DNA of 62,634 nt. Origin: a virus. The DNA lies in IMG/VR virus record IMGVR_UViG_3300028298_000008, positions 1 through 62,634 of that record; one strand, given 5' to 3'. Made by a program: the position numbers and the translations under genes. Positions 8,608 to 60,515 of the stretch are shown piece after piece. The first letter of the stretch is position 1, and the number at the start of each line of letters is the position of its first letter. A model generated the notes under the pieces. That model was not told where the DNA came from. It saw only the letters and a list, made by a program, of their open reading frames with translations, and did not search any database.

Positions 8608-8652
8608 GATTGACAGTAATTGTTACATAGGACAGTTACATGGAGGATGGGC

Positions 8653-10946: not shown

Positions 10947-13058
10947 ATGATCAAAATTCTTTTGGTTGGAGACCATCCGGAAGGACCAACAGGTAATGCT
11001 CACATGATGCATGGTATAGCAAGCCAGATAGACCCGGAGAAATTTCAAGTAGCTATATTAGCGATAAACCCAAGGCTGGCCATTACATCTGAACGAACTT
11101 TTGAACATTCCAAATGGCCTATCCTGGATGTTCATTCCGTGACAAACCCTTGTGCATGGGAGCATTCTCTTATTGGATTGGTTGCCGGCAAGCAACCAAT
11201 TGATATTGTCTTGTTTGTCGGATTGGATATATGGATGTTTGCTTTTACTTTATCTTCTTTGGTTGAGATAAAAAAGAAAAGAAAGATTATAATTGCATCC
11301 TTATTTCCATACGAATTTTATTCGGTGAAAAAAGAATGGCTCGATTGGTTAGCTATGATAGATATTCCTCTTGTTTATTCAGAATTTGGCTTTAATAAAT
11401 TAAAGCCTTTCGTAAATAAAGTGCAATACTTTCGTCCTCCCCTATTCGACGCAAAACAATTTCTTCCTTTCTCGAAAGAGAAACGATTTGAGGCAAGGAA
11501 AAAGCTGTTTAAGTCTATCAATGATGAAAACTTTGTCTTTGGGTTTTTCGGCAATAATCAGTATAGAAAGGATCCACAAAGAGTAATACGTTCCTTTTTC
11601 CAGACAAAACAAATATGCCCAAACAATAAATTATACCTGCATACAGAAGTAACCACAGGCCCATTTAATATACCAAGATACTTAAAAGACTGCGGAAATC
11701 AACTTGGAGACGTGTTTATTAAAAAACAAAAATATCAATATGATACCACAGCTATGGTAGAGATGTATAATGCTGTGGATTGTCTTGTGAGTGCCTCCTG
11801 GCAGGAGGGATTAAGTTGGACGATCTTAGAAGCCATGCTATGCGGAACTCCTGTTGTGGCAGCAAACAATACAGCACACATTGAACTTTTAAAAGGTGGT
11901 GCAGGGTTGCCTGTAAAATGTGACGAGCTTGCTTACCTACCAATTGATATGGGAGAAAACTGCACTTATATTGAAACATACGCTTGCAACCCAGACTCCC
12001 TGACAAAAGCCATGTTAAAAGTAATGAAACCAAAGGTAAGAGAAGGTTTAATAAAACGGGGATTTGAACGAGCCCGTGAATGGTTAGCAGGGGTGGGAGA
12101 CATAAATGATGTCTTTATAAAAGCCATCGAATCTTCTCAGACAAACATCTCTGAAAAAACAAAGAAAGAGATAGGGATAAAAACTGAAAGGAAGAAAGAA
12201 GTTTTATTCGCTCAATACTCTTCCGCAGGTGATGTTTTAATGACAACAAGAGCATTAAAAGGCATTAAAGAAATGTTTAAAGGACTACCATTGACCTATA
12301 TGACTTCTCCTCAATACATGGACATTTTGATTCACAATCCTCACATTGATAAAATAAGGTCATGGAACGAAAAAGCATTCAATGAATATGAATTTGTTTT
12401 GAATCCACATGGTGACAGAATTGGTCCTGGTCATTGGGGGAGAAACAGTAATTCCCTTCTTTCTGATTTCTATTGGAAGATATTGATGGTGCAGCCCTGT
12501 GACTTTTTTATTGAGAAAGTGATGCCTCCTCAAAATATTTCCCTTTCAATTACTACAGCAAGGAAACCAATTCTTATTCTTCATACTACAGGAGGGGATG
12601 CTGAATTTCGAACATACAAATATATGGTTGACATAGCCGAAGCAACCAAAGAAAAATACTTTACTGTTCAGGTAGGTGCGGCAACCGACTATCCTGCAGG
12701 TTCACAACTTGATCTAAGAGGAGCTTTGTCCTTCAGGGAATCTGCTTGGGTTGTAAGTAAAGCCGAGTTAGCAGTCACAGTAGATTCCTTCATCAGTCAT
12801 TTATGTGGGGCTTTAGGAGTGTCCCAAGTTTGTTTATTTGGTTGTGGTAATTGTAATGTGGTGAGACCGAATCAAATGAATGGCATTCTTACTTGCATGG
12901 TAATTGATTATGTGAACGATTGCTTAGGACTTGGTCCTTGCTCTGCATCAGTAAGAAACTGCCCTCTCCCTTGTACAGGGCGGCACAATCCTAAATCTGT
13001 GCTAAAGGAAATCGAGGAGATAGAAAAAGATTTGGCGAAACAGAAGAGAATGGAATAA
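10947..13058 (+). CDS. Two-domain glycosyltransferase: GT4-like + GT9-like fusion
   Basis: 703 residues with AAAGGAGG upstream. Residues 1 to about 400 look like a GT-B GT4-type glycosyltransferase: N-terminal KILLVGDHPEG, FGFFGNNQYRKDP, and the E-x7-E nucleotide-sugar motif (Glu 287 and Glu 295) in QEGLSWTILEA, then GTPVVA. From about 417 a second GT-B module begins (VLFAQYSSAGDVLMTTRAL), with a late motif SKAELAVTVDSFISHLCGALG. This matches the ADP-heptose:LPS heptosyltransferase (GT9) family. One chain could add two sugars in sequence. Which acceptor is modified cannot be seen. Confidence 0.8.
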   Translation: MIKILLVGDHPEGPTGNAHMMHGIASQIDPEKFQVAILAINPRLAITSERTFEHSKWPILDVHSVTNPCAWEHSLIGLVAGKQPIDIVLFVGLDIWMFAFTLSSLVEIKKKRKIIIASLFPYEFYSVKKEWLDWLAMIDIPLVYSEFGFNKLKPFVNKVQYFRPPLFDAKQFLPFSKEKRFEARKKLFKSINDENFVFGFFGNNQYRKDPQRVIRSFFQTKQICPNNKLYLHTEVTTGPFNIPRYLKDCGNQLGDVFIKKQKYQYDTTAMVEMYNAVDCLVSASWQEGLSWTILEAMLCGTPVVAANNTAHIELLKGGAGLPVKCDELAYLPIDMGENCTYIETYACNPDSLTKAMLKVMKPKVREGLIKRGFERAREWLAGVGDINDVFIKAIESSQTNISEKTKKEIGIKTERKKEVLFAQYSSAGDVLMTTRALKGIKEMFKGLPLTYMTSPQYMDILIHNPHIDKIRSWNEKAFNEYEFVLNPHGDRIGPGHWGRNSNSLLSDFYWKILMVQPCDFFIEKVMPPQNISLSITTARKPILILHTTGGDAEFRTYKYMVDIAEATKEKYFTVQVGAATDYPAGSQLDLRGALSFRESAWVVSKAELAVTVDSFISHLCGALGVSQVCLFGCGNCNVVRPNQMNGILTCMVIDYVNDCLGLGPCSASVRNCPLPCTGRHNPKSVLKEIEEIEKDLAKQKRME

Positions 13059-13081
13059 TATATATGAATAAAGGAGGAGCG

Positions 13082-13771
13082 ATGAAGAAACTGGTTGTGG
13101 CATCAAATATGTTTAATGAACACCATCAATTAGAGGAATGGTTTGCTTTTGTAAAGCAGATCGCGGATGCCGGCATTGTTATTGTAGACACAGGTTCTAC
13201 TGATGGAACAATCGAATATGCCAGAGAACAAGGAGCCGTCGTCATTATTGACGACATTATTCTGCGTGAGGGATATGGACCAGCTCGTAATCACCTACGA
13301 GAAATGTCAATAATACATTTCCCCAAAGCTCATTGGATGATCTATCTCGATGGCGATGAGAGAATTCTTGAAAAGGATTTCCACAATCTTCGTTTTACAA
13401 AAGATTATCTGATTGATGCTTTTGACGTGGTAGCTCTTCCACGTGTCGATTGGATGAACAAAGAAATGACTGAAGCGGCAAAAGACTGGCGAGTATACCC
13501 AGACTGGCAGGCTCGCATGTCAAGATTAAATAGTGGAGTAAAATATATTCGGAGACTCCACGAACAGATTGAAGGCCATAAAGCCATATATACAAATCTG
13601 AATCTGCCCAAGATCAATCATTTCCACCGCTCAGCAGGGAAAGAAACAAGGGATCGGATAGGGCGTATCTGTGCGAAGTTGCACGCAGAGGATCAAGATT
13701 ATGGGCATACTTATCCAAAGCATCCCAAAGAGGATTTATATTATGAACAGTATAAAAAAGAAGGATTGTAA
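13082..13771 (+). CDS. GT2-family glycosyltransferase
   Basis: 229 residues. GT-A features: an N-terminal NMFNEHHQLEEW, VDTGSTDGT at 35-43 for nucleotide binding, YLDGDERI with the DxD-like DGDE at 90-93, and a C-terminal RLHEQIEG / HFHRS segment, typical of SPBc2-like/TPR-linked GT2 enzymes. The ATG at 13082 has AAAGGAGG upstream; the ATG at 13064 does not. The 3' end overlaps the endonuclease gene by 29 bp. Confidence 0.8.
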   Translation: MKKLVVASNMFNEHHQLEEWFAFVKQIADAGIVIVDTGSTDGTIEYAREQGAVVIIDDIILREGYGPARNHLREMSIIHFPKAHWMIYLDGDERILEKDFHNLRFTKDYLIDAFDVVALPRVDWMNKEMTEAAKDWRVYPDWQARMSRLNSGVKYIRRLHEQIEGHKAIYTNLNLPKINHFHRSAGKETRDRIGRICAKLHAEDQDYGHTYPKHPKEDLYYEQYKKEGL

Positions 13772-14417
13772 TGCTCCTAATTGCAACAGAAGCTCCTTTA
13801 GGCACAGTTTGTACTGTGAGCGTCACAATAAACAGTTGAAACTGTTCGGTAGGATACGCACGGAATTTGTTAGAAGCAAAAAAGAACCTAATGAAATTAT
13901 TGTGGAACAAAACATAGGAAGGATTCTTTTGTATAATGAATTTGGTGAGGTAATAAAAGAAACAATAATTGATATTAATCAGATTGACAAAGTAAAAAAA
14001 TATAAATGGACTTTTGATGGGAGGTATGCCATAAACATAAATAATAGACTGTATCTACACCATCTCATTTTCAACTTTCAAAAAGAAAAGGGAAGGTTTA
14101 TTGATCATAAAAACGGAAATGGTCTTGATAATCGATTATCCAATTTGAGATCATGTACACAGGCCCAAAATTTATGGAATAGAACATATCAGATAAATAA
14201 TAAAATAGGATATAAAGGTGTTTCCTGGTGCAACAAGAGAAACAAATGGAGGGTAGCAATTTCGTTTAATGACACTTACAAACACATAGGATACTTCCAT
14301 ACAATTAAAGAGGCTGTAGAGGCACACAGAAAAGCCTGTATCCAGTATCATGGAAAGTTTGCTTATCCTGAACATCATAAAGAAGCGGAGTACGCTGAAT
14401 ATGGAGGAATGAAATGA
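13743..14417 (+). CDS. HNH-AP2 homing endonuclease (copy 1)
   Basis: 224 residues from the ATG at 13743 (AGAGGA upstream). Order: a C-x4-C...C-x2-H zinc finger (Cys 9, Cys 14, Cys 25, His 28); a PNEI-x-VE strand region shared with two other copies in this window; an HNH core with RLYLHHLIF and IDHKNGNGLDNR; and a C-terminal AP2 DNA-binding domain (GYKGVSW to GKFAYPE). Such proteins are selfish mobile endonucleases. It sits between glycan-island genes and overlaps the GT2 gene end. Confidence 0.85.
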   Translation: MNSIKKKDCNAPNCNRSSFRHSLYCERHNKQLKLFGRIRTEFVRSKKEPNEIIVEQNIGRILLYNEFGEVIKETIIDINQIDKVKKYKWTFDGRYAININNRLYLHHLIFNFQKEKGRFIDHKNGNGLDNRLSNLRSCTQAQNLWNRTYQINNKIGYKGVSWCNKRNKWRVAISFNDTYKHIGYFHTIKEAVEAHRKACIQYHGKFAYPEHHKEAEYAEYGGMK

Positions 14418-14674
14418 AAAAAGAAGATTTCGTAAATTTTATAAAAAAAACATTAAAAGCAGTAGAAAATGATGACTCCGCAGAAGGAAGCATTAGATAC
14501 GAATGGGGGAAAGAAAGAGACCTCTATAATGTCAATGCCTTTGTCCGAGTGGGTAACTCAATGGGTCAAGGAGGTTGTGTGCTTGTTAATGAAAAATTGA
14601 GGGACGATCCTCCGCAAGGACCAGAAGAAATTGAGGAAAGCAGCGATGCCGTAACAGAATGTGGAGATAAGTAA
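14414..14674 (+). CDS. Small acidic hypothetical protein
   Basis: 86 residues starting at an ATGA overlap with the endonuclease stop. N-terminal helix with Lys/Phe, then a short beta region, then an acidic Pro/Glu-rich tail. No family recognised. Confidence 0.5.
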   Translation: MKKEDFVNFIKKTLKAVENDDSAEGSIRYEWGKERDLYNVNAFVRVGNSMGQGGCVLVNEKLRDDPPQGPEEIEESSDAVTECGDK

Positions 14675-14686
14675 AAGGAGCTTGAA

Positions 14687-14752
14687 ATGGCAGAAGGCGT
14701 CCACCGCATTACAGAAGAAAGGGAACGCTTCCTGAAGGAAGGATTAAAATGA
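14687..14752 (+). pseudogene. 21-aa ORF resembling the N-terminus of the DegT gene (possible remnant)
   Basis: The peptide begins MAEGVHRITEERERF, and the aminotransferase at 16939 begins MSEGVYRITQEFEEA. The M-x-EGV-x-RIT match, with matching DNA around the start, suggests a shared origin. The frame then stops and overlaps the methyltransferase start by 4 bp. AAAAGGAG precedes it. It may be a decayed or truncated copy, or just a short leader. Confidence 0.35.
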
Positions 14753-15456
14753 TCCAGGAAATCCCGGAAGAAACAAAGTATTTCTTTCTTGAAAGTGTCT
14801 GGAAAGATTACTTCCGATACAAAATGGAAGATATGAAAATGATAAGGTTTGGTTGGGAGGGAGAAGATAAGAATCTGAAAGCCTTCAATAGTAAAAAAGA
14901 GTATATAGAATGGTATTGCTTTCATCCAAAAGCACCAGAGCCTTATAGAGATTTTGGTTTCTATACTCGTGAGCTGACAGCATTATCAAATTTTATGCGA
15001 CCAAAAGTAATCGTTGAGATTGGCACGGGTCTTGGAGCAGGTACTTTTCTTCTTTATCACTTGAATCCAGATGCCCATCTAATCACAATAGACAGAAAGC
15101 AATTCCAGAAAGCCCCTGAGAACATGGTATTTCAAACAGGTGATCTTGCTATAATTAATGGTATTCCTTACAATTTTATATGGGGGAATTCGTCCTCTGC
15201 TATCATAACAAAGAAATTCAATCTGTGCTTCATTGACGGAGATCATTCTTTTGCAGCCGTTTGGGAAGACAGTTTATGGGCTTGGGAAAACAAGGACGAG
15301 GACAACTTTGTAATTATTTGGCATGACTTTCGTGAGGACAACCCTGAGTTTGAAGGATTAAGGAAGGCAATAAAGTTGTTTTCTGAATGGGCAAATATTG
15401 ACATTCATAAATTGAAAGACAGCTCAACGGCGTGGTGCTACAGGAGATCAGAATGA
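14749..15456 (+). CDS. Class I SAM methyltransferase (Methyltransf_24/TylF-like)
   Basis: 235 residues. Motif I VEIGTGLGAG at 89-98, motif II-like LITIDRK, and a late FIDGDHSF near 161-168, the pattern of sugar O-methyltransferases and the related cephalosporin-hydroxylase group. The ~80-residue N-terminal extension is helical. Probably methylates a sugar or a small substrate linked to the glycan island. Overlaps the next gene by ATGA. Confidence 0.7.
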   Translation: MIQEIPEETKYFFLESVWKDYFRYKMEDMKMIRFGWEGEDKNLKAFNSKKEYIEWYCFHPKAPEPYRDFGFYTRELTALSNFMRPKVIVEIGTGLGAGTFLLYHLNPDAHLITIDRKQFQKAPENMVFQTGDLAIINGIPYNFIWGNSSSAIITKKFNLCFIDGDHSFAAVWEDSLWAWENKDEDNFVIIWHDFREDNPEFEGLRKAIKLFSEWANIDIHKLKDSSTAWCYRRSE

Positions 15457-16151
15457 AAAGAATACCAATCTTAATCCTGTGCATTGGTGAGCAAGGAGCA
15501 AGTGTCTTGTCAAAGACTTTTAATTTATGTGGAATGTCCTTGGGCAATGAAAAAACATATTGGCACCCTGAATACAATACCCCAAATTGGGAGCACTCTT
15601 ATGTAACTGCAATAATGGCTTGGGTGCATCAACGACCAAAAGAAGAATGGCAGTTGGCGTTAAGAAAAGTTCTTCAATCTTACAAAGCAGAAGCCGAAAA
15701 TGAAAACTGGAAATGTTATGGAATAAAAACGTCAAGCGGTATCTGCAATTCAAAATGGGGAATGGGAGTGAGTGATATTCTCAAGGAAGAATGGCCAGAC
15801 GCTCTTTATTTTAGTGTGCTAAGAAGACCTAACGTAAATCACCCTGATGCAAATGATCATTGGAACAGTGTTTGGGTAGGAAGAAAAGGAATCGTTGATA
15901 GAGGAGGAGTGTTTGTTCTTTTTCCAGATGCTTGGCTGGACGGAACAATACAAAAGGTTATTGAGGCCTCAGGCCTTGTCTGGAAAGAAGAAGCCATCTC
16001 TGCATTTGAAAAAAGAGAAGCGGAAACTCCTTTGCCTACTATTGAAGAAGAAAAAGTATATTATGATATTTATCCCATAGAGAAAGAGCAAAGGGATTAC
16101 TTATGGAATAAAAACAAAGAAAACTTCCAGAGGATGAAGGAAATGAAATGA
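15453..16151 (+). CDS. Sulfotransferase-fold-like protein
   Basis: 232 residues from the ATG at 15453. The N-terminus (RIPILILCIGEQGASVLSKTFNLCGMSLG) aligns by eye with the PAPS-binding start of bacterial sulfotransferases, but the usual RSGT P-loop is changed to EQGAS. A central LYFSVLRRPN resembles the second PAPS motif (R-P at the strand end). C-terminal half is charged and helical. Sulfation of a sugar is plausible but the altered loop makes activity uncertain. Confidence 0.5.
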   Translation: MKRIPILILCIGEQGASVLSKTFNLCGMSLGNEKTYWHPEYNTPNWEHSYVTAIMAWVHQRPKEEWQLALRKVLQSYKAEAENENWKCYGIKTSSGICNSKWGMGVSDILKEEWPDALYFSVLRRPNVNHPDANDHWNSVWVGRKGIVDRGGVFVLFPDAWLDGTIQKVIEASGLVWKEEAISAFEKREAETPLPTIEEEKVYYDIYPIEKEQRDYLWNKNKENFQRMKEMK

Positions 16152-16939
16152 AATACCCATTTGATTACTGTATAATTGCTATAAATGAGGTGAAACCTTT
16201 TGTAAAACTTCAGCTGGAGAGTCTGGTCAAACCTAATCCAAGATTCAACATTGCTGGAGGATGCTCTTATAAGGACTTTGCCTCTTTTCATATTGTTGAT
16301 AAAGGCACAAAAGATGGAGTTGTGGATTATTGCAAAAAAACGATTCCGTCCATTGTAATCCATGAATTGGATTACTACTCTCCACAAAACAAAAATTGTA
16401 GTGTGCGAGATTCTTTCTGGCAATGGGATTTAGCTTATTCTATTCAACACGCCATCGAAAATTGTGGAACCTCAGATTGGATTTTGATAATGCATCCAGA
16501 CATTGTGTATTGGGATTCAAAAAAGTATTTCGATGGATTGTGGGGAATGACTGGAAACGATGTTGGTCAAGTATGGGAAGGGGGGGTTATTCTTACTAAT
16601 AGAGAAGCCTATTATCAATCCCATTTAGGATTTTGGCCATTGTTCGAATCCACCATATACACAAATAAAGAAACAAATGCAAAATATCTTATCCACAACC
16701 GTGATGAAAGGAAACAAGAGGATTCTCTTCGTATTCAAGGAATAGAAGCAGGGGAGCTTTTCTTAATTGAATTACTTCTTTTAGGCTGGAGAACACCAAT
16801 AGTCCCTTATAAAATTTCCAGAAATAAAGAGCACACAGCCCAAAGCACAGGTCATGATATTGGCCCTGCACAAGCTGAATTGTGGAACAACAAGATTAAT
16901 CTTTTAAAGGAACGATTGGCTTATTATGGAGGCGTGTAA
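16148..16939 (+). CDS. GT-A glycosyltransferase-like protein
   Basis: 263 residues, ATGA-coupled to its neighbours. An N-terminal strand DYCIIAINE, a VDKGTKDGV segment resembling the GT2 D-x-GS-x-DG, and DWILIMHPDIVYWD with a DxD-like HPDI suggest a GT2-type nucleotide-sugar fold. The C-terminal third is diverged, with no recognised catalytic base. Probably part of the same glycan pathway. Confidence 0.55.
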   Translation: MKYPFDYCIIAINEVKPFVKLQLESLVKPNPRFNIAGGCSYKDFASFHIVDKGTKDGVVDYCKKTIPSIVIHELDYYSPQNKNCSVRDSFWQWDLAYSIQHAIENCGTSDWILIMHPDIVYWDSKKYFDGLWGMTGNDVGQVWEGGVILTNREAYYQSHLGFWPLFESTIYTNKETNAKYLIHNRDERKQEDSLRIQGIEAGELFLIELLLLGWRTPIVPYKISRNKEHTAQSTGHDIGPAQAELWNNKINLLKERLAYYGGV

Positions 16940-17586
16940 TGAGTGAAGGCGTATATAGAATCACTCAGGAATTTGAAGAAGCTTTGGCCAGATACACAGG
17001 GTCTGCTTATGCTGTTACAATTGATAATCAAAGCAATGCTTTATTTCTTGCTCTAATATACACTGGTATAGAGGGAAAGGTAATAACTATCCCTTCAAGA
17101 ACATATCCTTCCGTCCCTTGTGCAATAATACATGCTGGAGGAAAGGTCAAATTTTATGCATCTGAAAAGGGCACTTTAAAAGGAGAGTACCAGCTCGTTG
17201 GCTCGAATGTATGGGATTCTGCTTTACGATTTACACATAATATGTATAGACCAGGACAATTACAATGCCTGTCGTTTACTGGTCCTTATAAACACTTGAA
17301 GCTTGGAAAAGGAGGAGCGATTCTAACGGACAATGTTGATGCTTGGCGATGGCTTAAAAGAGCCAGGTTTTCTGGAAGAAGAGAATGCTCCTACCATGAA
17401 GATCATTTTGATATGCTGGGATGGAATTATTATCTTATGCCAGAGATAGCAGCCAGAGGATTGTTGTTGATGAATCAATTTTATGATATAGAAGGAAATC
17501 CAAAGAATAACGATGATCTTGAGCTTCCTTATCCTGATCTTAGCAAATTTTCAATTTACACAGATTCCAATAGGACAGAAAAATGA
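16939..17586 (+). CDS. Short DegT/DnrJ/EryC1/StrS aminotransferase-like protein
   Basis: 215 residues, about 60% of the ~370 usual for the family. The N-terminal start (RITQEFEEALARYTGSAYAV), IDNQSNALFLAL and PSRTYPSVPCAIIHAG match PLP-dependent sugar aminotransferases. PYKHLKLGKGGAIL holds the expected PLP lysine. The C-terminal small domain is shortened to ~60 residues. ATGA-linked to the methyltransferase that follows. It may still make an amino-sugar precursor, or be a truncated form. Confidence 0.7.
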   Translation: MSEGVYRITQEFEEALARYTGSAYAVTIDNQSNALFLALIYTGIEGKVITIPSRTYPSVPCAIIHAGGKVKFYASEKGTLKGEYQLVGSNVWDSALRFTHNMYRPGQLQCLSFTGPYKHLKLGKGGAILTDNVDAWRWLKRARFSGRRECSYHEDHFDMLGWNYYLMPEIAARGLLLMNQFYDIEGNPKNNDDLELPYPDLSKFSIYTDSNRTEK

Positions 17587-18179
17587 CATTTGAAGAATGC
17601 TTACTCTTATGGAAAGAATTTGAAGGTCAAACAGATCCTACAGAAGGGGTTGAATTGTATAATGCTGTTATAAATACGCCTCCTGGCGCCGTTGTGGAAG
17701 TAGGCTCTGCTTCAGGTGGTACTACTATCATCTTAATAAAAGCTGCGGAACTTGTTGGCAAAATGGTTTATTCCATTGATATTTATCCAGAAGAGTTAGA
17801 AGGGAAAGCCCTGCATTGTCCTCCTGGATTAATGAGGGCATTAAAGGACAAATTCAAAAAGAATATCTTAAATGGTGATTATAAAAACATCATCCAATTC
17901 AATACAGACGTAAAAGGAAGTATTAGCAAATTGCCTAAAGAACTCTCCGTTGTGTTTATTGATGGGTGCCATGAGTTTTCTTTCGTTCAAGAGGAGTTTA
18001 ATCTGCTTTATCCATTAGTGATTGCTGGAGGATGGATTTTCATTCACGATACGACATGGGAACTTGGTCAAATATCTCTCACAGAAGAAACGGCTTTAAA
18101 ACAAGTTTGGCATAGAATCAACAAGGAATTGTTTTCAGAAATAAAAAAGGAAGGATCCATGTTCTGCGGAAGGAAATGA
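17583..18179 (+). CDS. Class I SAM methyltransferase (Methyltransf_24-like)
   Basis: 198 residues. Motif I VVEVGSASGGTT near 37-48, acidic loop SIDIYPEE, and FIDGCHEF with a later FIHDTTW strand. This is the same broad family as the genes at 14749 and 22765. It ends one base before the WbqC-like gene. Confidence 0.7.
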   Translation: MTFEECLLLWKEFEGQTDPTEGVELYNAVINTPPGAVVEVGSASGGTTIILIKAAELVGKMVYSIDIYPEELEGKALHCPPGLMRALKDKFKKNILNGDYKNIIQFNTDVKGSISKLPKELSVVFIDGCHEFSFVQEEFNLLYPLVIAGGWIFIHDTTWELGQISLTEETALKQVWHRINKELFSEIKKEGSMFCGRK

Positions 18180-18180
18180 C

Positions 18181-20188: not shown

Positions 20189-20577
20189 TAAATTTAATGT
20201 ATATAGAACAAGGATGTATTCCAAATATTGATGAATACCTAACAAAAATACTAAACCACGCCTCCTTCATTATTGATTACGATGAAAAAATATGCCGGGG
20301 ATTTATAGCCTATTATTGCAATAAGAACCTTGCGAAAGTATACATAACTATGGTTCTTGTAAGGGCGCAATATAGAGGATTAGGAATAGGCAAAGGATTA
20401 GTGGAATTCGTTCTAAACACTACACAACGGAACAAAGAATTCCTATCTTGCGAGCTTGAAGTGGATGATAAAAATGAGGTTGCTTACAATATGTACAAAT
20501 CAATGGGTTTTAAAATAACAAAAATCACTCCAGATAAGACACAAATGGAGAAAAGATACAATCAGGAGGAAATATGA
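20170..20577 (+). CDS. GNAT-family N-acetyltransferase
   Basis: 135 residues. The acetyl-CoA loop RAQYRGLGIGKGL at 65-77 contains the R-G-x-G-x-G pattern, followed by CELEVDDKNEVAYNMYKSMGF, the usual fourth-strand/C-terminal motif. Within the island it could acetylate an amino sugar. Starts inside the end of the radical SAM gene. Confidence 0.8.
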   Translation: MYNKDIINLMYIEQGCIPNIDEYLTKILNHASFIIDYDEKICRGFIAYYCNKNLAKVYITMVLVRAQYRGLGIGKGLVEFVLNTTQRNKEFLSCELEVDDKNEVAYNMYKSMGFKITKITPDKTQMEKRYNQEEI

Positions 20578-21509
20578 AAGAAGAAACGTACACATCGACA
20601 GGACTCAAAATTCTTCATCATCCCGATGCGCTGAGATTAGCACAGAAAAAGATGGCTAAACCAATATCTTTGCAAATCTCTCCGACTTCCCGATGTAATT
20701 TAAGCTGTGTTTTCTGCTCCAATGTTAATAGAGGAAAAGACGAACAGTTGCCCTTTGATGTTATCAAAACTCTTCTACGACGACTTTGTTATTTAGGAGC
20801 GAAGACCGTTGAATGGACAGGGGGTGGAGACCCAACATTATACCCCGAAATCAACGAAGTGATTGATATAGCCTATTCTATGGGTTTAAAACAAGGATTT
20901 ATTACAAATGGGGTAGCTGTGGCTAAGAATCTTAAAAGAACATCATTAAAGCATCTTCATTGGTTGAGAATTTCCTTAAACTGCCTGGACTATGTTGATG
21001 ATATTGAAATACCAAAAATTAAAGGGACGTTAGGATTCAGCTATGTCATGAATACAGAGACGTGCCCAAACACAATCAAAAAGCTCATAGAGTATGGGAA
21101 GAAGCACAAACCTGCGTATATCCGAATTGTTCCGAATTGCCTTGCCACAGACGAAGAGCAGCTTTATAATAACAAAGTGCTTTCGGAAATGGTTGATGAC
21201 TGGGGACATCCTTTCTTTTATCAAGCGAAACTGTTTGAAAGACCTGAGCGATGTTGGTGGGGGTATTTTAAACCCTTTGTCCTTCATGATGGATGGGTCT
21301 ACCGCTGTTCCTCTGTTGTATTGAATCTTGACGCTGAGCGTAAATTTGATGAGAAATATAGATGGTGTACTGTTGAAGAACTTCCTGATATGTACCTATC
21401 AAAAATGATTCCATTCGATCCCGAACCGTGTTCACATTGTGTATTTTCCAATCAAAATAATTTAATTGATGGAGTTGTTAATCCTAATGGACAAGAAGAT
21501 TTCATATAA
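20574..21509 (+). CDS. Radical SAM protein with C-terminal Cys-rich end
   Basis: 311 residues. SRCNLSCVFC gives CxxxCxxC at Cys 41, 45 and 48; TGGGDPTLYPEI is the glycine-rich SAM-contact motif. The C-terminus carries further Cys (RCWWG, YRCSSV, PCSHCVF) that could hold an auxiliary cluster. Substrate unknown. Its 3' end overlaps an HNH endonuclease gene by 23 bp. Confidence 0.82.
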   Translation: MKEETYTSTGLKILHHPDALRLAQKKMAKPISLQISPTSRCNLSCVFCSNVNRGKDEQLPFDVIKTLLRRLCYLGAKTVEWTGGGDPTLYPEINEVIDIAYSMGLKQGFITNGVAVAKNLKRTSLKHLHWLRISLNCLDYVDDIEIPKIKGTLGFSYVMNTETCPNTIKKLIEYGKKHKPAYIRIVPNCLATDEEQLYNNKVLSEMVDDWGHPFFYQAKLFERPERCWWGYFKPFVLHDGWVYRCSSVVLNLDAERKFDEKYRWCTVEELPDMYLSKMIPFDPEPCSHCVFSNQNNLIDGVVNPNGQEDFI

Positions 21510-22032
21510 AATAAGAACAAAATTTGACCCGAATGAAATCCTTATCGAGGGTCTTATTTGCAGGATGAAATTATACAACTCCAAGAATGAAGAGATAGCA
21601 GAAACGATCTTTGATATACAGCATATTAAAAAAATAGGTGCTCTTAAATGGTATTTGTGTAAAACAGGATATGCTACCAATTTAAAAACAAGAAAGAGAA
21701 TGCATCAACTGATCCTGCCTTGCCCCAGAGGAGTTGAGGTAGACCATAAAGACAGAAATAAACTTAATAATAAAAGAAACAATTTACGATATGCTTCAAA
21801 ATCACAGCAAGGACAAAATAGAGGTCCAAATAGAAACAGTCAATCAGGAATAAAAGGAGTATGGGAACTTCCAAATGGGAAATGGTCTTCTCAAATCACC
21901 TGTAATAAGAAAAGATATGTCCTGGGGGATTTCTTAACAAAAGAGGAGGCTGCCCAAGCTTATAATGAAAAGGCTCTCTTACTCTTTGGAAAATTTGCAA
22001 GTGTAAATAAAGAAGGAGGACATAATGAATAA
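21487..22032 (+). CDS. HNH-AP2 homing endonuclease (copy 2)
   Basis: 181 residues from an ATG at 21487; earlier in-frame starts at 21466 and 21469 are possible. It has the PNEI-LIEG-x-ICR-KLYN block shared with the other copies, an HNH core (RMHQLIL, VDHKDRNKLNN) and an AP2 domain (SGIKGVWEL to GKFASV). It lacks the N-terminal zinc finger of copies 1 and 3. It overlaps the end of the radical SAM gene, suggesting insertion right at that 3' end. Confidence 0.82.
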   Translation: MDKKISYKIRTKFDPNEILIEGLICRMKLYNSKNEEIAETIFDIQHIKKIGALKWYLCKTGYATNLKTRKRMHQLILPCPRGVEVDHKDRNKLNNKRNNLRYASKSQQGQNRGPNRNSQSGIKGVWELPNGKWSSQITCNKKRYVLGDFLTKEEAAQAYNEKALLLFGKFASVNKEGGHNE

Positions 22033-22207
22033 AAAGTTTGATCAATTACTACAACGGATTCCTTTTTACAAACTTAACTTTCTGTCTGGTTTCTCAAAGA
22101 AAGTTTATTTCTCTTCGCATAAACCTCATCAAGGAGAACAAGAAAAAGCGAGACGAAGGAAACAGATTGAAAAGGGAATGCTAAAGGTGGACAGAGGAAA
22201 GACTTAA
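22025..22207 (+). CDS. Small basic hypothetical protein
   Basis: 60 residues, strongly basic in the C-terminal half (EKARRRKQIEKG). Starts in an 8-bp overlap with the endonuclease (GAAGGAGG upstream) and its stop overlaps the next ATG. Unknown. Confidence 0.5.
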   Translation: MNKKFDQLLQRIPFYKLNFLSGFSKKVYFSSHKPHQGEQEKARRRKQIEKGMLKVDRGKT

Positions 22208-22530
22208 TGGTGAATCACAACTACAGACAGAAACATCCTACTTTAGGATGGGGAGATCATACTGGAGGATTCTTCTATATTCCAGAGAAGAATCTCAGAG
22301 TGATTGTATCAAATGGGTATGGATGGGACCACATATCTGTCTCCTTAATAAATCGTTGTCCGACATGGGAGGAAATGGACTTTGTAAAGAGGACGTTTTT
22401 TAAAGACGATGAAGTGGTTATCCAAATCCACCCTGCAATCAAAGATCATAAAAACGTAATGCCTTATTGTCTTCACTTATGGAGACCACAAAGAGAAATT
22501 GTGCCATTACCACCAAAATGGATGATATAA
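22207..22530 (+). CDS. DUF7694-like phage protein
   Basis: 107 residues. The series LRVIVSNGYGWDHISVSL, NRCPTWEEMDFVK and PYCLHLWRP is one I recognise from a widespread phage/bacterial domain of unknown function (recalled as DUF7694). No mechanism is known. Confidence 0.7.
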   Translation: MVNHNYRQKHPTLGWGDHTGGFFYIPEKNLRVIVSNGYGWDHISVSLINRCPTWEEMDFVKRTFFKDDEVVIQIHPAIKDHKNVMPYCLHLWRPQREIVPLPPKWMI

Positions 22531-22545
22531 AAAGGAGGTCTACTG

Positions 22546-22752: not shown

Positions 22753-22764
22753 AGGAGGTTATTA

Positions 22765-23523
22765 ATGTTTATTGTCACAAAAGAATGGTTGAAGCAAAAC
22801 TATGGAAGTAAGGATCAGTATCAAGAAGCGGACTCCGCAAAATGGCTCAATCGGTATGGACAGAAGGTGACGCCAGAGCTTATTGAAGAATGGAAAGTGT
22901 GGAAGCATTTGATAGAATATCAAGTGAACACACTCGACATTGTTCCCAAAGCTTTGGCAATGATCGGGCAGTCTTACAGGTCTGAATTAGAAGCCCATCG
23001 TCTGATCAATCTGATGAGAGTTCCTCTCGCCACATCTTATGAAGAAGCGTTATCTGTAGCACACCCAAGTTCAATTCTTGAACTTGGTGTTGGTGGGGAT
23101 TCTGCTATCAGCACAGCGGTGTTCTTATGCTATGTTGAATGGATGAAAGGGGCATTAAACTCTGTGGACATCAATCCTCTTGGCAAAACATGGGAGAGAT
23201 ATGGAAAGTTCACAGAGCTATGGAGATTCAAACAGATTCCGGCTGAAGATTATCTTTCCACATGCATAAAGATGGGGTATCGATTTGATCTGGTGTTTAT
23301 TGACACCTCTCATTCCTACGAGCCAACAATTAAAGAGATGTCATTGGCTTCTGAGATCACAAATACTATATTGATGGATGATGCCTTGTTTGAAGGCAAC
23401 GAGCCAGACAGGCTGAAAGGAGGGGTAAAGAAAGCAATAGCGGATTGGATGTTTGCTTTTGAAGACGAGTGGACAAAAACAGATTTCTGGAATGGCATGA
23501 CCATTCTATTACAACGAAAATAA
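22765..23523 (+). CDS. Class I SAM methyltransferase-like protein
   Basis: 252 residues with AAAGGAGG upstream. A ~100-residue helical N-terminus is followed by motif I SILELGVGGDSA near 103-114, SVDINPLG, and FIDTSHSYE, as in Methyltransf_24/class I sugar methyltransferases. It is flanked downstream by an endonuclease gene. Confidence 0.68.
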   Translation: MFIVTKEWLKQNYGSKDQYQEADSAKWLNRYGQKVTPELIEEWKVWKHLIEYQVNTLDIVPKALAMIGQSYRSELEAHRLINLMRVPLATSYEEALSVAHPSSILELGVGGDSAISTAVFLCYVEWMKGALNSVDINPLGKTWERYGKFTELWRFKQIPAEDYLSTCIKMGYRFDLVFIDTSHSYEPTIKEMSLASEITNTILMDDALFEGNEPDRLKGGVKKAIADWMFAFEDEWTKTDFWNGMTILLQRK

Positions 23524-23535
23524 CAGGAGGTTTTA

Positions 23536-24189
23536 ATGAAGAAAGGAGGAGAGATAATAAAATGCAAAGTAAAAGGATGCCCTTCTAAAAAGAGAAGTTT
23601 AACAGGGTTTTGCGCTCGTCATTATTGGCAGATTAAAAACTTTGGTGTGATTAAAGGAAATCCAAAGCAATCTCTTAAAACCCCTAATGAGTTTATTATG
23701 GAAGGAAGTATTTGTAGAATTAAACTTTATAATAGGTTAGGAGAAGAGATTGCTGAGGCCATAATAGATGCAGAGGATTACTCTAAGGTAAAAGGTTATA
23801 AATGGGGAATTCAAAGCCCTAAAGGACATGTAAAAACCTATTTAAAAGGGAAAAACAAAGGACTTGCTAACATAGTTTTGGGAAAGGATTCCTCCAGACA
23901 AGTCCAAATTGATCACAAAGACAGAAACCCATTGAATAACAAAAAAGACAATCTAAGATTCTGTTCTCATAAACAAAATGGTTGGAATCGTGGTCCTAAC
24001 AAAAACAATTCCTCAGGATTAAAGGGAATCAGTAGATGTAAAAATAAGTGGAGAGTTATGATACAAAGACAAAATAATAAACCCATTTACTCAAAAACTT
24101 TTGATTCCAAGGAATTAGCAGTGGAAGCTTACAATCAAAAAATAGTAGAAATTCAAGGCCGATTTGCCTATACAAATCCAACAAAATAA
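23536..24189 (+). CDS. HNH-AP2 homing endonuclease (copy 3)
   Basis: 217 residues, CAGGAGG upstream. N-terminal zinc finger (Cys 10, Cys 15, Cys 26, His 29); the shared PNEF-IMEG-x-ICR-KLYN block; HNH core with QIDHKDRNPLNN; C-terminal AP2 domain (SGLKGISR to GRFAYTN). It lies cleanly between the methyltransferase and the next glycosyltransferase. Confidence 0.85.
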   Translation: MKKGGEIIKCKVKGCPSKKRSLTGFCARHYWQIKNFGVIKGNPKQSLKTPNEFIMEGSICRIKLYNRLGEEIAEAIIDAEDYSKVKGYKWGIQSPKGHVKTYLKGKNKGLANIVLGKDSSRQVQIDHKDRNPLNNKKDNLRFCSHKQNGWNRGPNKNNSSGLKGISRCKNKWRVMIQRQNNKPIYSKTFDSKELAVEAYNQKIVEIQGRFAYTNPTK

Positions 24190-24200
24190 GGAGTATTATT

Positions 24201-25217
24201 ATGTTAAAAAAAATAGCTATAGGCCTCACCCACGGCCATTGCCCAAAATGGCTTCAGACCTGCATTCATTCTCTGAAGCGGTATTACAACGAAGTTGGAA
24301 TGGACATCTATGTAGCCTGCTCATGGCCAGGGCATCCAAGCATCAAAGCTTTGACGGAAACTCCTCTCGGAGAAAATGTCACCCTGATTGATTGTGAACG
24401 AAGAAAGCACAGCCACGCAACAGGGCTTGAAGAAATTCTTGAACTCATTTGGGATAAGGATTATGATTTCTTCTTCACCTGTGAAACAGATTGCCGAGCA
24501 ATGAAGGACGGCTGGCTTGACTGGTTCCACAAGTATTTGCTGATGAGCAGTCATTTCGGAATTGCCGGCTTCTATTGGGATGAAGGAACAAATCATCAGA
24601 ACATCAATGCCTCCGGAACACTATACAGAATGGGGATGCTGAAACGCTACCATCAGGAATGTCGGGACAATAATGAAGGCATGTTTTGGCACCCAAGAGG
24701 CAATCGACACGATACAGAAATGGGGATGGATCCATCAATCAAAGACGTTGTCGGCTGTTTCGCCGAAACACGGGGAATCAAAGACCCTACAGACCCACAG
24801 AAAGAGATCATCATGCGCGGCGTTCCTCAGGCCTCTTGGTTTGAACCTGGCCAATGGTTGTATGCTCGCCTCCAAGCAGAGTGGGGGGAGGTAAGAGTGC
24901 CTTGCGATCATATTTATCTCCACACTCCAGGACAGCCAAGTGTCTACACACCAGAAGGAACATACTACGGAGGCAAAAAAGATCCGTACTTCATTCACTA
25001 TTGGGGAGGGACTCGGTGCTATGATTTCCTCAAACATCCAGTCAATGACAATTTCGTGAAGAATGGATCACCATGGTGGATCAAGCGGGAAGATGCCGTT
25101 TGGAGAGAAGAAGTTCCTGAAGAATACCGGCAGATCGTTCACCAGCTCAACATTGAAGCAAATGTAGAGCAGAAGATGAGGGAGAATCTTGGAATCTTTG
25201 TTCCGGAGGCTATGTAA
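24201..25217 (+). CDS. GT-A glycosyltransferase-like protein
   Basis: 338 residues. N-terminal KIAIGLTHGHCPKWLQTCIHSL is a GT2-type first strand and helix, and DYDFFFTCETDCRAMKDGW carries a DxD-like Glu-Thr-Asp. The second half is Trp/Tyr-rich (WFEPGQWLYARLQ, YFIHYWGGTR) and unlike standard enzymes. This DNA is slightly more GC-rich and uses fewer AT-ending codons than its neighbours, which could mean separate acquisition. Ends at a TAATG overlap. Confidence 0.65.
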   Translation: MLKKIAIGLTHGHCPKWLQTCIHSLKRYYNEVGMDIYVACSWPGHPSIKALTETPLGENVTLIDCERRKHSHATGLEEILELIWDKDYDFFFTCETDCRAMKDGWLDWFHKYLLMSSHFGIAGFYWDEGTNHQNINASGTLYRMGMLKRYHQECRDNNEGMFWHPRGNRHDTEMGMDPSIKDVVGCFAETRGIKDPTDPQKEIIMRGVPQASWFEPGQWLYARLQAEWGEVRVPCDHIYLHTPGQPSVYTPEGTYYGGKKDPYFIHYWGGTRCYDFLKHPVNDNFVKNGSPWWIKREDAVWREEVPEEYRQIVHQLNIEANVEQKMRENLGIFVPEAM

Positions 25218-25426: not shown

Positions 25427-25440
25427 GGAAAGGATATATT

Positions 25441-25737
25441 ATGACCAAACAAGAAATACTTGATTTTATCAACCAACTACCAGACCGTGACAATTATGAC
25501 ATCGGTCTGGAGGCGGACACCTTATATATTCATGTGAAACGGTTTAAACTCACATCTAAAGACGGGACTGCCAGGAGGCACTGCGAAGTTGAAATAGATG
25601 GAAAACTCATTAGTGGTGTGTCCCATTTAGAAATAATAGCAGACCCTAAACAACCCGGATACATTAACATCAAAATGATGCTTTTACCAAACACTATAAT
25701 AACGGAAGGGGGTGATTCCCATCAACTTCCAACTTGA
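25441..25737 (+). CDS. Hypothetical protein
   Basis: 98 residues from the ATG at 25441 (GAGGAAAGGA upstream). Beta-rich with a helical N-terminus (KQEILDFINQLP). Overlaps the next gene by 26 bp in another frame. Confidence 0.5.
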   Translation: MTKQEILDFINQLPDRDNYDIGLEADTLYIHVKRFKLTSKDGTARRHCEVEIDGKLISGVSHLEIIADPKQPGYINIKMMLLPNTIITEGGDSHQLPT

Positions 25738-26551
25738 GACCAGCTCTTACTGTAATTTGAGATGTGTAGAATGCCCGCATCGCCTGATGAAAAGGAGACA
25801 GTCATTGATGTCCTATGATACCTTTTCCAAAATTTTGCACGACTACATTCTGCCTTATAAGGATATGAATAGATGTGCAGGGCATCAGCCAACAATTATT
25901 CTACACAAAGATGGGGAGCCGTTGCTCAACCATAATTTAACAACCTTCATAAAAATGATCTCTTACGCAGACCCAAAGTTGAAGATAGACATTTACACAA
26001 ACGGTCTCCTTCTTACGGAAGAGTTCATTCGTTTCTTAGGCACTATGCCAAATCCTATTTGGCTACTTGTATCGTTTCACTTCTATAATTATGATGAAAC
26101 AGGTAATGATTATGAAAGCACAAATGAAGTTCTGCTGAAGGCGCTTGATTATAAGCCTTCAAATGTAGACCTGATCTTCGTATCTCATGTCACCAGATTT
26201 ATAAATGAGAGAAGATTACTTGCTTGGCAAGGTTTCTGGAAAATGGAAGCCTCTTCAAGAAACGTGAAGCTTGAGGTGCACATAAATCCACACATCAACC
26301 CATGGACAGGCTTGATCGATGAACCGAATTGTGTAAAGTTCGGTGGTTGTCCGTATGCAGATTTCGGCCATATATTCTTTGGCGCCACCGGGAATGTTGT
26401 TCCTTGTTGCATGGATTTGGAGGAACAGATCACTTTCGGCAATATTCAAAAAGATGACCCTGCTGAAGTAATAGAGAAGCTGAAATTCTTCTACGAAGGA
26501 TTGAACAAAAAAGAGCTTTTACCGCCTCTATGCGAGAGATGTATGCTTTAA
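25712..26551 (+). CDS. Radical SAM/SPASM-like protein
   Basis: 279 residues starting at a GTG with GGAAGGGG upstream. SSYCNLRCVECP gives CxxxCxxC at Cys 14, 18 and 21; IDIYTNGLLL is the usual following strand. The C-terminus has SPASM-like cysteines (NCVKFGGCPY, VVPCCMD, LCERC), typical of enzymes that use an auxiliary cluster. Third radical SAM gene of the island. Confidence 0.85.
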   Translation: MIPINFQLETSSYCNLRCVECPHRLMKRRQSLMSYDTFSKILHDYILPYKDMNRCAGHQPTIILHKDGEPLLNHNLTTFIKMISYADPKLKIDIYTNGLLLTEEFIRFLGTMPNPIWLLVSFHFYNYDETGNDYESTNEVLLKALDYKPSNVDLIFVSHVTRFINERRLLAWQGFWKMEASSRNVKLEVHINPHINPWTGLIDEPNCVKFGGCPYADFGHIFFGATGNVVPCCMDLEEQITFGNIQKDDPAEVIEKLKFFYEGLNKKELLPPLCERCML

Positions 26552-26615
26552 AGCAGAAAAGCGCAAATAGACACAGTTTTGTGTGAAATTTAATCGGTTT
26601 TGAAGGGGCTTTACG

Positions 26616-28430
26616 ATGAAAAATTTAATAGGCAAAGAGGATATGCTCTTGAACCAACGAAACAAACAATCTCTTCCCTCAGAGTTTTATGATGCCGACT
26701 ATTATCTCAGGGGAATTGAAACAGGTAAAAGCTGTTATCAAAACTATCGCTGGTTGCCAGAGTTGACAATGCCAATGGTCATGAGGATCATTGATTATCT
26801 TCATATTCGTCCAGATCAAACTATCCTTGATTATGGGTGCTTTCCTGCTGGAGTCAAAATCTTAATGGGGAATAAAAATTATAAAAATATAGAGGAAATT
26901 TGTGTTGGGGAGGAAATAACAACCTCCAAAGGAAGTATAAAAAGGGTGTTATCTGCTTCTAAACGAAAGGTTAAGAAAACTATTATTATACATCTTTCTC
27001 ATAAAATGAAGATAGAATCTTCTTTGGAACACCCCTTCCTTTGTCAAAAAAGAGAGGAGGTATTATGTCGCCCATCAGGATGGAATGGCACATGCAACAC
27101 AAATCACCCTAAAGGATGCTCAAAATGTCATAAAAAGGGAAAGTATGATAGTCCTTATTTTGTAAATGCAGAGGATTTAAAACCTGGAGATTATTTATGC
27201 CTCCCAAGATTTTCTAAAAAAGAATATTTCATAGAAAAAGATGATTGGGCAGAATTTCTTGGTTTTTACTTAGCCGAAGGTAATCTTATTTATTCCCATA
27301 AGCATCATAATAAACCCCATAATATAGGAGGACTTGAATTTACTTTCCATATAAAGGAAAAGAATTATGCAGAAAGAATTGTGTTTCTTTCTAAAAAACT
27401 TGGGGGAGTTTCCACATCTGTTCGTGAATGTGAAGAAAGGCACACTCTTACTGTTTTAGTTTTTGGTAAAGTATTAGCAGAAGAGGTTTTGAGATTAGGA
27501 GGTCAAAAAGCAGATAAAAAAAAGCTCGCCCCCGAAATAATTAATACTTGGAAAGATTCTTCTATCCGAAAATTAGTAATTTCTTGGTTAAAAGGAGATG
27601 GTTGTCTTTTTCATAATCCTATAAATGGAGGAACCGTTTGGGGGGGATGTTCCATATCCCATGATCTTATTTTAGGAATGAGACAAATTTTACTTAGACT
27701 TGGTATTATGAACACTTTAACAAAAATAAAAAAGAAAGTGGATAGAAGACAAGCTTATAATCTTACTATTTATGGAAGATTTAATATCAACAAACTGAAT
27801 GAGAAAGAACAAAGAACAACCAATACTTCTATTCAAAATAGAATGTCTGATGATTATATCTTTGTACCGATCAGAAAAATAAAAATAAAAAACAAAAAAA
27901 CATTTGTTTACAATATGGAAGTGCAAGGAGATCACACCTATATTGCAAATGATCTTTGTGTTCATAACTGTTCATTAGGATTTGTCGTAAAAGCTTTCCG
28001 ACTTCTCCACAGACAAGCATGGGGATTCGATATAAGCAAATATGCTATCGACAATGTGGATCCTATGGTAAAACCATACTGCTTCACCTCTACCAATCTT
28101 GTGGAGATACCAGAGAGCTTTGATTATTGTATAGCCAAGGACGTTCTCGAACATATCAGTTATGAATGCATAGAGAACATCCTTAAATATATCAATGCCA
28201 AGAACATCTTCGCCATTATTCCACTTGGTAGTAATGACAAGTATGAAGCCCCATCAAACGACCTTGATATTTCCCACATCATCTGTGAGCAATTGGATTG
28301 GTGGCTTGAAACCTTTGCTCATTCGAACTGGGAATTTATTCACTTTGGTTATCGTATTGATGGCATCAAAGATTCTTATTATAGGAAGTATCCACGAGCA
28401 CATGGATTCTTTTTTTGTAAAAGGAGGTAG
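26616..28430 (+). CDS. SAM methyltransferase interrupted by an intein
   Basis: 604-residue precursor. Residues 1-74 and 452-604 join to a 227-residue class I methyltransferase: DYG followed by CSLGF forms motif I (D-x-G-C-x-x-G), then WGFDISKYAID and DYCIAKDVLEHIS, as in Methyltransf_11/25-type enzymes. The intein (75-451) splits exactly inside motif I, so the enzyme is dead until splicing. Located at the end of the glycan island, ribosome site GAAGGGG upstream. Confidence 0.85.
   Translation: MKNLIGKEDMLLNQRNKQSLPSEFYDADYYLRGIETGKSCYQNYRWLPELTMPMVMRIIDYLHIRPDQTILDYGCFPAGVKILMGNKNYKNIEEICVGEEITTSKGSIKRVLSASKRKVKKTIIIHLSHKMKIESSLEHPFLCQKREEVLCRPSGWNGTCNTNHPKGCSKCHKKGKYDSPYFVNAEDLKPGDYLCLPRFSKKEYFIEKDDWAEFLGFYLAEGNLIYSHKHHNKPHNIGGLEFTFHIKEKNYAERIVFLSKKLGGVSTSVRECEERHTLTVLVFGKVLAEEVLRLGGQKADKKKLAPEIINTWKDSSIRKLVISWLKGDGCLFHNPINGGTVWGGCSISHDLILGMRQILLRLGIMNTLTKIKKKVDRRQAYNLTIYGRFNINKLNEKEQRTTNTSIQNRMSDDYIFVPIRKIKIKNKKTFVYNMEVQGDHTYIANDLCVHNCSLGFVVKAFRLLHRQAWGFDISKYAIDNVDPMVKPYCFTSTNLVEIPESFDYCIAKDVLEHISYECIENILKYINAKNIFAIIPLGSNDKYEAPSNDLDISHIICEQLDWWLETFAHSNWEFIHFGYRIDGIKDSYYRKYPRAHGFFFCKRR
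26838..27968 (+). mobile_element. Intein with LAGLIDADG (DOD) endonuclease in methyltransferase motif I
   Basis: 377 residues. Block A begins CFPAGVKIL (Cys 1 nucleophile). SSLEHPFL is block B with the conserved His. DOD endonuclease motifs are LGFYLAEG and LVISWLKGDG. Blocks F/G run YNMEVQGDHTYIAND to VHN, followed by C+1 of the extein. A C-x2-C/C-x2-C cluster (CNTNHPKGCSKCHKKG region) sits between block B and the endonuclease, an unusual extra. All residues needed for Cys-Asn-Cys splicing are present. Confidence 0.9.
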
Positions 28431-60504: not shown

Positions 60505-60515
60505 GCTCTCTCCTC

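Follow-up and report, generated by a model that had tools for sequence, protein, structure and literature searches.

The window, the whole 62,634-nucleotide stretch of viral DNA analysed here, contains a block of sugar-enzyme genes of about 17 kb at positions 10947–28430, recognized by profile searches of its open reading frames. Every gene of this island lies on the + strand. The genes form an operon-like run with mostly overlapping start and stop codons, as a preliminary description of this DNA had reported: 21 of the 25 junctions between 10246 and 29012 overlap or are ≤20 bp apart, and a Shine-Dalgarno-like AGGAGG precedes most starts. The island is real and phage-borne, and brings together several glycosyltransferase (GT) genes and sugar-tailoring genes in one run of a tailed-phage genome. 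It is composite. A recurring core of eight genes (GT4–GT9, GT2, radical SAM (rSAM), two methyltransferases, an unclassified GT, rSAM/SPASM and a further methyltransferase) is accompanied by an inserted accessory amino-sugar module (half-length DegT, methyltransferase, WbqC, GNAT and an AprD4-like B12 rSAM enzyme).

Core genes, intein and homing endonucleases

The 703-residue GT4–GT9 fusion (10947–13058; PF13692/PF00534 and PF01075) matches Glyco_trans_1_4 with an E-value of 1.4e-9 and Glyco_transf_9 with 3.6e-5. Homologs occur in two other viral contigs, G125 (53% identity over the C-terminal part) and G126 (31% over the full length, with the fusion kept). It is followed by a GT2 family enzyme (13064–13771; PF13704, 5e-8; 63% identical in G125, 30% in G126). 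Two core Methyltransf_24 proteins lie at 14749–15456 (PF13578, 7e-8; 47% in G126, 30% in G125) and 22765–23523 (PF13578, 6e-6; 55% in G125, 50% in G126). The core rSAM enzyme at 20574–21509 (PF04055, 1.5e-11) is 55% identical to its counterpart in G125, 39% in G126 and 32% in pelagiphage HTVC008M, and the rSAM/SPASM enzyme at 25712–26551 (PF04055 and PF13186, 2.3e-8) is 49% identical in G125, 22% in G126 and 20% in a further contig, G124.

The 338-residue protein at 24201–25217, which carries the motif ETDCRAMKDGWLDW, matches nothing in any profile or structure library searched, but belongs to a family conserved in phage sugar cassettes (62% identity in G125, 61% in G126, 31% in G124) and always lies inside a GT/methyltransferase/rSAM cassette. 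We therefore infer that this orphan is a probable glycosyltransferase. Three GT-A-type transferases had been proposed for the island. A frame at 16148–16939 had been called a GT-A enzyme; this accessory open reading frame, a possible glycosyltransferase, is unmatched in Pfam, PHROGs, NCBIfam, PDB and INPHARED. The adjacent accessory frame at 15453–16151, earlier called sulfotransferase-like, has no assigned family and gave no hit to Pfam, PHROGs, NCBIfam or PDB, which leaves this identity unsupported. The overlapping run also includes an 86-residue frame (14414–14674) and a DUF7694 protein (22207–22530; PF24746, 1e-24).

The last core gene (26616–28430) encodes a class I SAM methyltransferase interrupted by a 377-residue LAGLIDADG intein (26838–27968; PF14890, 1.4e-10; PF14528, 8e-7), whose boundaries were set from intein-free relatives. 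The insertion lies within SAM motif I (ILDYG/C...HN/C, with slashes at the junctions) and has Hint splicing motifs, an N-terminal Cys and a C-terminal HN/C. Intein-free homologs in G125 (56%) and G126 (45%) align across the junction with the 227-residue spliced product. The enzyme is expected to be active only once splicing restores motif I. The four SAM methyltransferases of the preliminary description are thus accounted for, three by Methyltransf_24 profiles and the fourth as this split gene. The intein had been overlooked, as had three HNH_3 homing endonucleases: one with an AP2 domain (13671–14417, with the true start probably at about 13746; PF13392, 1.1e-8; AP2, 7e-5) and two others at 21490–22032 (PF13392, 3.4e-9) and 23536–24189 (PF13392, 5.8e-7). 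Group I introns were considered behind the HNH genes, and no Rfam family reached threshold.

The accessory amino-sugar module

The most distinctive member of the module is a 215-residue DegT-type protein (16939–17586; PF01041, 6e-16), predicted to be a PLP-dependent sugar aminotransferase. Its score of 59 bits against a curated Pfam cut-off of 19.8, together with a fold match to GDP-perosamine synthase (Foldseek 1.7e-8, probability 1.00; mean pLDDT of the model, 75.7), places it in the DegT/DnrJ/EryC1/StrS family, where full-length proteins have about 360–390 residues and a C-terminal small domain. The candidate PLP lysine is Lys118, which coincides with the DegT lysine motif in the alignment and does not vary among 14 aligned sequences. 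Most of 95 related loci contain a frame of 207–224 residues, and this ‘mini-DegT’ occurs in at least 458 viral contigs while being nearly absent from cellular genomes, a distribution that marks the half-length protein as a phage-specific form. In other phages the next gene downstream most often encodes a PglD-type acyltransferase, WbqC or a methyltransferase.

Here, mini-DegT is followed by a Methyltransf_24/CmcI-like methyltransferase (17583–18179; PF13578, 3e-13; PF04989, 1.8e-6) and a WbqC family protein (18181–18894; PF08889, 1.3e-68), whose 231.5 bits far exceed the cut-off of 21.3. In each of the 16 loci found to contain WbqC, it adjoins mini-DegT; WbqC presumably acts on the amino sugar and has no solved relative by sequence. 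The best Foldseek match is BshC (E-value 1.1e-3, TM 0.39), but a reading of WbqC as a BshC-like amino-sugar ligase was dropped because the WbqC–BshC profile–profile probability is only 0.3%.

The module also contains a GNAT acetyltransferase (20170–20577; PF13508, 2.2e-11) and, at 18887–20188, an rSAM enzyme with a B12-binding domain (PF02310, 2.6e-18; PF04055, 1.5e-18) and the cluster motif CPKGCNFC, features that point to B12-dependent chemistry. Its nearest solved structure is AprD4 (6fd2; 7.8e-17), the rSAM diol-dehydratase that acts on an aminosugar in apramycin biosynthesis; at 76 of the 500 bits of the NCBIfam AprD4 cut-off, however, the phage protein is not an orthologue. Profiles likewise uphold the other early family calls, namely the GT4–GT9 fusion, DegT, WbqC, GNAT and three rSAM enzymes, one with a B12-binding domain. 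All three rSAM enzymes retain CxxxCxxC.

Genome context and related cassettes

UvsX and SbcCD genes lie to the left of the island, and its right-hand side has genes for a dNMP phosphatase and for tail proteins, portal and terminase. The island is downstream of the replication genes and converges on tail genes of the − strand. The one circumstance compatible with a bacterial glycan cluster having been joined to phage DNA by misassembly is that no independent assembly spans the island, since the additional contig, at 99.8% identity, extends over just 34490–62634. Phage genes on both sides, continuous tetranucleotide usage, the phage-specific mini-DegT within the island and the synteny of the core in other viral contigs leave misassembly essentially refuted.

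All eight core genes recur, nearly colinear and with 22–63% identity, in G125 and G126, where the cassettes are intein-free and lie near head or tail genes on the same strand. The association is therefore conserved rather than scattered, and with no sign of a chimera it supports the earlier proposal that the phage encodes an island for making and decorating an unusual sugar. The G125 cassette is upstream of genes for the major tail protein and the tape measure. That of G126 precedes genes for the major head protein (a weak match, E-value 3e-4), neck and tape measure, and the genes immediately flanking it match no family. The unrelated contig G124 has a GT9–GT2–methyltransferase–orphan GT–rSAM/SPASM–acetyltransferase–deacetylase cassette between a P22-like portal gene and a capsid gene, and the relatives G012 and G013 have GT9/methyltransferase cassettes among head–tail genes. 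GT genes thus accompany structural genes in all five contigs, whereas the window has its island on the strand opposite to them. In four phages, rSAM and GT genes are neighbours.

The homologous cassettes were recovered only by alignment of the orphan GT; exact-peptide scans with the GT4–GT9 fusion and the B12 rSAM enzyme found no viral relative. Apart from the GT and methyltransferase matches in G012 and G013 and one weak DUF7694 match in G012, no homologs of island proteins were found in the closest major capsid protein relatives (G004, G005, G006 and G011), which is weak evidence of absence because most of these are fragments.

Probable function and relation to known systems

The island looks like a tailoring-and-transfer set that would use host NDP-sugars and not like a full pathway, because profile searches found no NDP-sugar pyrophosphorylase, dehydratase or epimerase, Pfam identified no polymerase, ligase or GtrA/GtrB, and a simple hydropathy scan of the annotated proteins found no flippase-like multi-TM protein. 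It therefore differs from serotype-conversion or O-antigen loci of the Gtr or Wzx/Wzy type, and the likeness to O-antigen clusters noted previously holds in part: none of these genes was recognised and the DegT protein is the phage-specific half-length form. In the proposed scheme, NDP-sugars would be taken from the host, mini-DegT would aminate a keto-sugar, and WbqC and GNAT would then modify the amine. The rSAM enzymes may deoxygenate, epimerise or C-methylate the sugar, with methyltransferases capping hydroxyls, and the glycosyltransferases would assemble a short glycan on an acceptor in the cytoplasm, with a protein of the head or tail as the likeliest candidate.

We tentatively favour, at somewhat under even odds, the view that the island is a virion-glycosylation cassette that coats the particle with a decorated sugar made from host-derived activated sugars. 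Among the three targets considered (virion, host envelope and phage DNA), the virion is the best supported because homologous cassettes sit inside head/tail operons of other phages. A sugar coat on the particle is the likeliest outcome because related phages have the core, with its two rSAM enzymes, in the same order amid genes that build the particle, and the DegT fold of mini-DegT and its sugar-enzyme neighbours in other phages agree with it. In mycobacteriophages, GTs encoded by the phage are reported to glycosylate the capsid and the tail tube (Freeman 2023, as cited in PMC12619734). Against this view, the window's own island sits outside the structural operon, and the usual interpretation of GT clusters next to structural or tail-fibre genes in marine myophages is modification of the host O-chain (PMC7029224, PMC7824862).

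Under that standard reading of cyano- and pelagiphage clusters, the cassette would act late in infection to remodel the envelope of the host, be it LPS, O-antigen or capsule, and so block superinfection or keep progeny from re-adsorbing to debris. LPS loci typically include members of the WbqC, GT9 and DegT families, and HTVC008M has a GT–rSAM–methyltransferase–carbamoyltransferase–UDP-glucose dehydrogenase cluster; but with no membrane-export or polymerization genes recognised here and core cassettes within head/tail runs elsewhere, we consider envelope remodelling a serious but less likely alternative. It is less probable still that one or both core rSAM enzymes act on a peptide of the virion or host, in the manner of SPASM peptide maturases, with the GTs and methyltransferases decorating the same protein, which would make the cassette a system for modifying proteins and not a sugar pathway. 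The rSAM/SPASM enzyme does score best against SPASM maturase models, and rSAM genes do adjoin GT genes in four phages, yet all scores fall well short of the curated thresholds (45.8 bits against 380), no precursor-peptide gene was recognised and the neighbouring genes encode sugar enzymes. Glycosylation of phage DNA to evade restriction is very improbable. Phage GTs are able to hypermodify DNA with a variety of glycans (Pyle 2024, as cited in PMC12619734), but the contig, which may be incomplete, has no thymidylate-synthase-type pyrimidine hydroxymethylase (PF00303), which makes DNA the least supported target, and the heptosyltransferase-type and Methyltransf_24/CmcI families belong to glycoconjugate loci.

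Phage sugar clusters are already known; what is new is a conserved, rSAM-containing one embedded in morphogenesis operons. The polysaccharide-modification clusters that cyanophages such as P-SSM2 and jumbo phages carry (Iyer et al. 2021, PMC7824862) and the LPS/GT genes in the host-recognition clusters of pelagimyophages (PMC7029224) also combine several GTs, sugar-modifying enzymes and methyltransferases, and rSAM cassettes are reported in pelagimyophage host-recognition regions (PMC7029224). Those phages are large T4-like myoviruses, whereas the present one is a siphovirus of about 63 kb, and here a two-rSAM core is kept across phage lineages, inside the head/tail runs of relatives, in an island that by profile lacks an NDP-sugar epimerase or dehydratase. 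The rSAM content, called striking at the outset, is present but less unique than it appeared, as GT and rSAM genes also cluster in HTVC008M and cyanophage S-SCSM2R. The Synechococcus phage S-SCSM2R has a mini-DegT (31% identity) directly followed by an rSAM gene among GTs, with 2OG oxygenases and an amidinotransferase in place of methyltransferases and WbqC. The Flavobacterium phage immuto island (NC_055915 gp171–gp181) has the mini-DegT gp172 (67% identical), GTs including a GT2, a methyltransferase, a second annotated aminotransferase and a PglD-like acyltransferase; unlike the present island it has an epimerase, and no rSAM or WbqC is annotated. The mycobacteriophage system (Freeman et al. 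2023, cited in PMC12619734) resembles the outcome proposed here in that GTs act on capsid and tail-tube subunits. Our island, whose virion target is a prediction, is far larger and adds rSAM and B12 chemistry.

More speculatively, the cassette may be a mobile, lineage-crossing one whose two core rSAM enzymes would give the virion a radical-rearranged, multiply methylated sugar coat, and which in this phage would have moved to the other arm, gained the phage-specific half-size aminotransferase module and come to depend on intein splicing for one methyltransferase. The likely benefit of virion glycosylation would be shielding of the particle or changed adsorption. For systems of this kind the half-length DegT, predicted to act as a minimal sugar aminotransferase with PLP, offers a useful marker gene. 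Phage glycan clusters are generally interpreted as sets of LPS-type genes that serve superinfection exclusion; the core order kept across phages within head/tail operons suggests that rSAM-modified glycans may instead decorate the virion, affecting adsorption, stability or recognition.

Gene content and setting of the island

The glycosyltransferase (GT), methyltransferase (MT) and radical SAM genes at 10947–28430 (+) sit between replication-side genes and virion genes in the 62,634-bp IMG/VR record. UvsX, exonuclease and SbcCD-like genes occupy the left end (+), and lambda-type tail genes (J, tape measure), an HK97-type major head protein, portal and terminase lie right of 30 kb (−). A second contig from another sample, 99.8% identical, spans 34490–62634; among the contigs found, no independent one crosses the island. 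That second contig, G001, stops at exactly the last base of the window, 62634, so this point may be a physical end of the genome or an assembly-breaking repeat.

The operon-like character claimed in the preliminary description is borne out: 21 of the 25 gene junctions overlap or are ≤20 bp apart, and most carry Shine-Dalgarno-like sites. Pfam supports the GT4–GT9 fusion, GT2, three Methyltransf_24, DegT, WbqC and GNAT genes, together with three radical SAM genes, of which one has a B12-binding domain and another a SPASM domain; all three enzymes retain CxxxCxxC. Two entries of the earlier gene list are unsupported, a ‘sulfotransferase’ (15453–16151) and a ‘GT-A’ enzyme (16148–16939), neither of which has a match in Pfam, PHROGs, NCBIfam or the PDB. 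A DUF7694 protein lies within the island (22207–22530), a DnaJ-domain protein immediately ahead of it (10246–10914) and a DUF4326 protein at 8620–8997.

On the right arm, two tail-fibre-region genes (35546–36790 and 37251–37982, −) are 44% identical across about 200 residues, an apparent duplication around 36803–37231. The portal protein (56836–60519, −) has a C-terminal class I SAM MT domain (residues about 1057–1168). In a relative by major capsid protein (MCP), G004, a homologous MT instead forms the C-terminal part of a fusion with the prohead protease (L024:17414–18847). The portal MT domain is possibly a virion-borne enzyme.

A core cassette and its homing elements

Alignment of the orphan, probable GT (24201–25217) with its homolog in an unrelated phage, G124, retrieved two viral contigs, G125 (18.8 kb) and G126 (31.6 kb). 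The G125 order is GT4–GT9 (53% identical to the window), GT2 (63%), a GDSL-like gene, radical SAM (55%), MT (55%), MT (30%), orphan GT (62%), HNH, radical SAM/SPASM (49%) and MT (56%). The G126 order is GT2 (30%), radical SAM (39%), MT (50%), MT (47%), orphan GT (61%), radical SAM/SPASM (22%) and MT (45%), with the GT4–GT9 fusion (31%) placed further along; apart from that displacement, only the 14749-like MT has moved. Core order is thus largely kept in both contigs, rather than homologs being scattered, the outcome that the preliminary description had set against its proposal. Phage sugar clusters are already known, some with radical SAM genes (HTVC008M, S-SCSM2R); in the literature, which was incompletely covered, we found no description of a conserved radical SAM-containing core cassette within morphogenesis operons, nor of a half-length phage DegT family.

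Several mobile elements escaped the preliminary description. Pfam places intein-splicing and LAGLIDADG domains in the MT ORF at 26616–28430, where a 377-residue intein (26838–27968, +) breaks SAM motif I after ILDYG, runs from CFPAG to VHN and is followed by CSLGF. Its relatives in G125 (ILDFGCAFGYLVKAFRLL) and in G126 (ILDFGCAKGYLVKAFRLL) lack the intein, and their alignment runs unbroken over the junction. Three HNH_3 homing endonucleases also lie within the island and, with the intein and the HNH gene inside the G125 cassette, they mark the cassette as a repeated target of homing elements. The portal gene contains another 377-residue LAGLIDADG intein (59176–60306, −; after SVWVYA, before CINAI), 25% identical to the MT intein (3e-19) and absent from the portal of every relative examined. 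The terminase-like ORF upstream of the G124 portal (L247:1965–4493) has a Hint/intein-like insertion (Hom_end_hint, 5e-4); inteins therefore recur among genomes with the cassette.

The accessory module and mini-DegT

Amid the core genes lie 15453, 16148, a half-length DegT-type gene (mini-DegT, 16939–17586), an MT, WbqC (18181–18894), the B12 radical SAM gene (18887–20188) and GNAT (20170–20577); none of these accessory genes was detected in G125 or G126. Mini-DegT has 215 residues, little over half the known DegT length. Its predicted model (mean pLDDT 75.7) has a DegT fold matching GDP-perosamine synthase (1.7e-8), and K118, which falls at the lysine motif of DegT enzymes, is shared by all 14 aligned sequences. 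At least 458 viral contigs carry mini-DegT; among 84,980 genomes it appears in only eight MAG contigs, which come from mixed phyla and are mostly short and probably misbinned phage. The module was probably drawn from the phage gene pool, since mini-DegT is 67% identical to a gene of an isolated Flavobacterium phage. At 95 loci the next gene downstream is usually a PglD-type acyltransferase cluster (41), WbqC (20) or an MT (about 18), and mini-DegT is directly upstream in 16 of 16 loci found with WbqC; in the window an MT stands between the two. This neighbour pattern suggests an amination step, after which the amine is modified. In seven loci (of L124–L203) the ORF has 866–928 residues, so mini-DegT is fused there to another domain.

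Candidate acceptors

The island would tailor host NDP-sugars and then transfer them to a cytoplasmic acceptor; profiles detected no NDP-sugar pyrophosphorylase, dehydratase or epimerase in it. The main rival to a virion target is remodelling of the envelope, the usual reading of such clusters in marine phages (PMC7824862; PMC7029224); a hydropathy scan showed no flippase-like multi-TM protein in the island. Peptide modification by the radical SAM/SPASM enzyme is less likely, as is glycosylation of DNA; the contig has no thymidylate-synthase-type hydroxymethylase.

Virion proteins are preferred because of operon context in relatives and a mycobacteriophage precedent for their glycosylation (PMC12619734). 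The cassette lies upstream of, and on the same strand as, the major tail protein and tape-measure genes in G125, and the major head (a weak call; phrog_29, 3e-4), neck and tape-measure genes in G126. In G124 a cassette of GT9, GT2, MT, orphan GT, radical SAM/SPASM, hexapeptide acetyltransferase and PIG-L deacetylase is flanked by a P22-like portal and a capsid gene, and two MCP relatives (G012, G013) carry a GT9–MT–GT9–ORF–MT cassette among head–tail genes. The case is drawn from relatives because the window island sits on the opposite arm from the structural genes, downstream of replication genes. On this context, virion proteins would be the best candidate acceptor.
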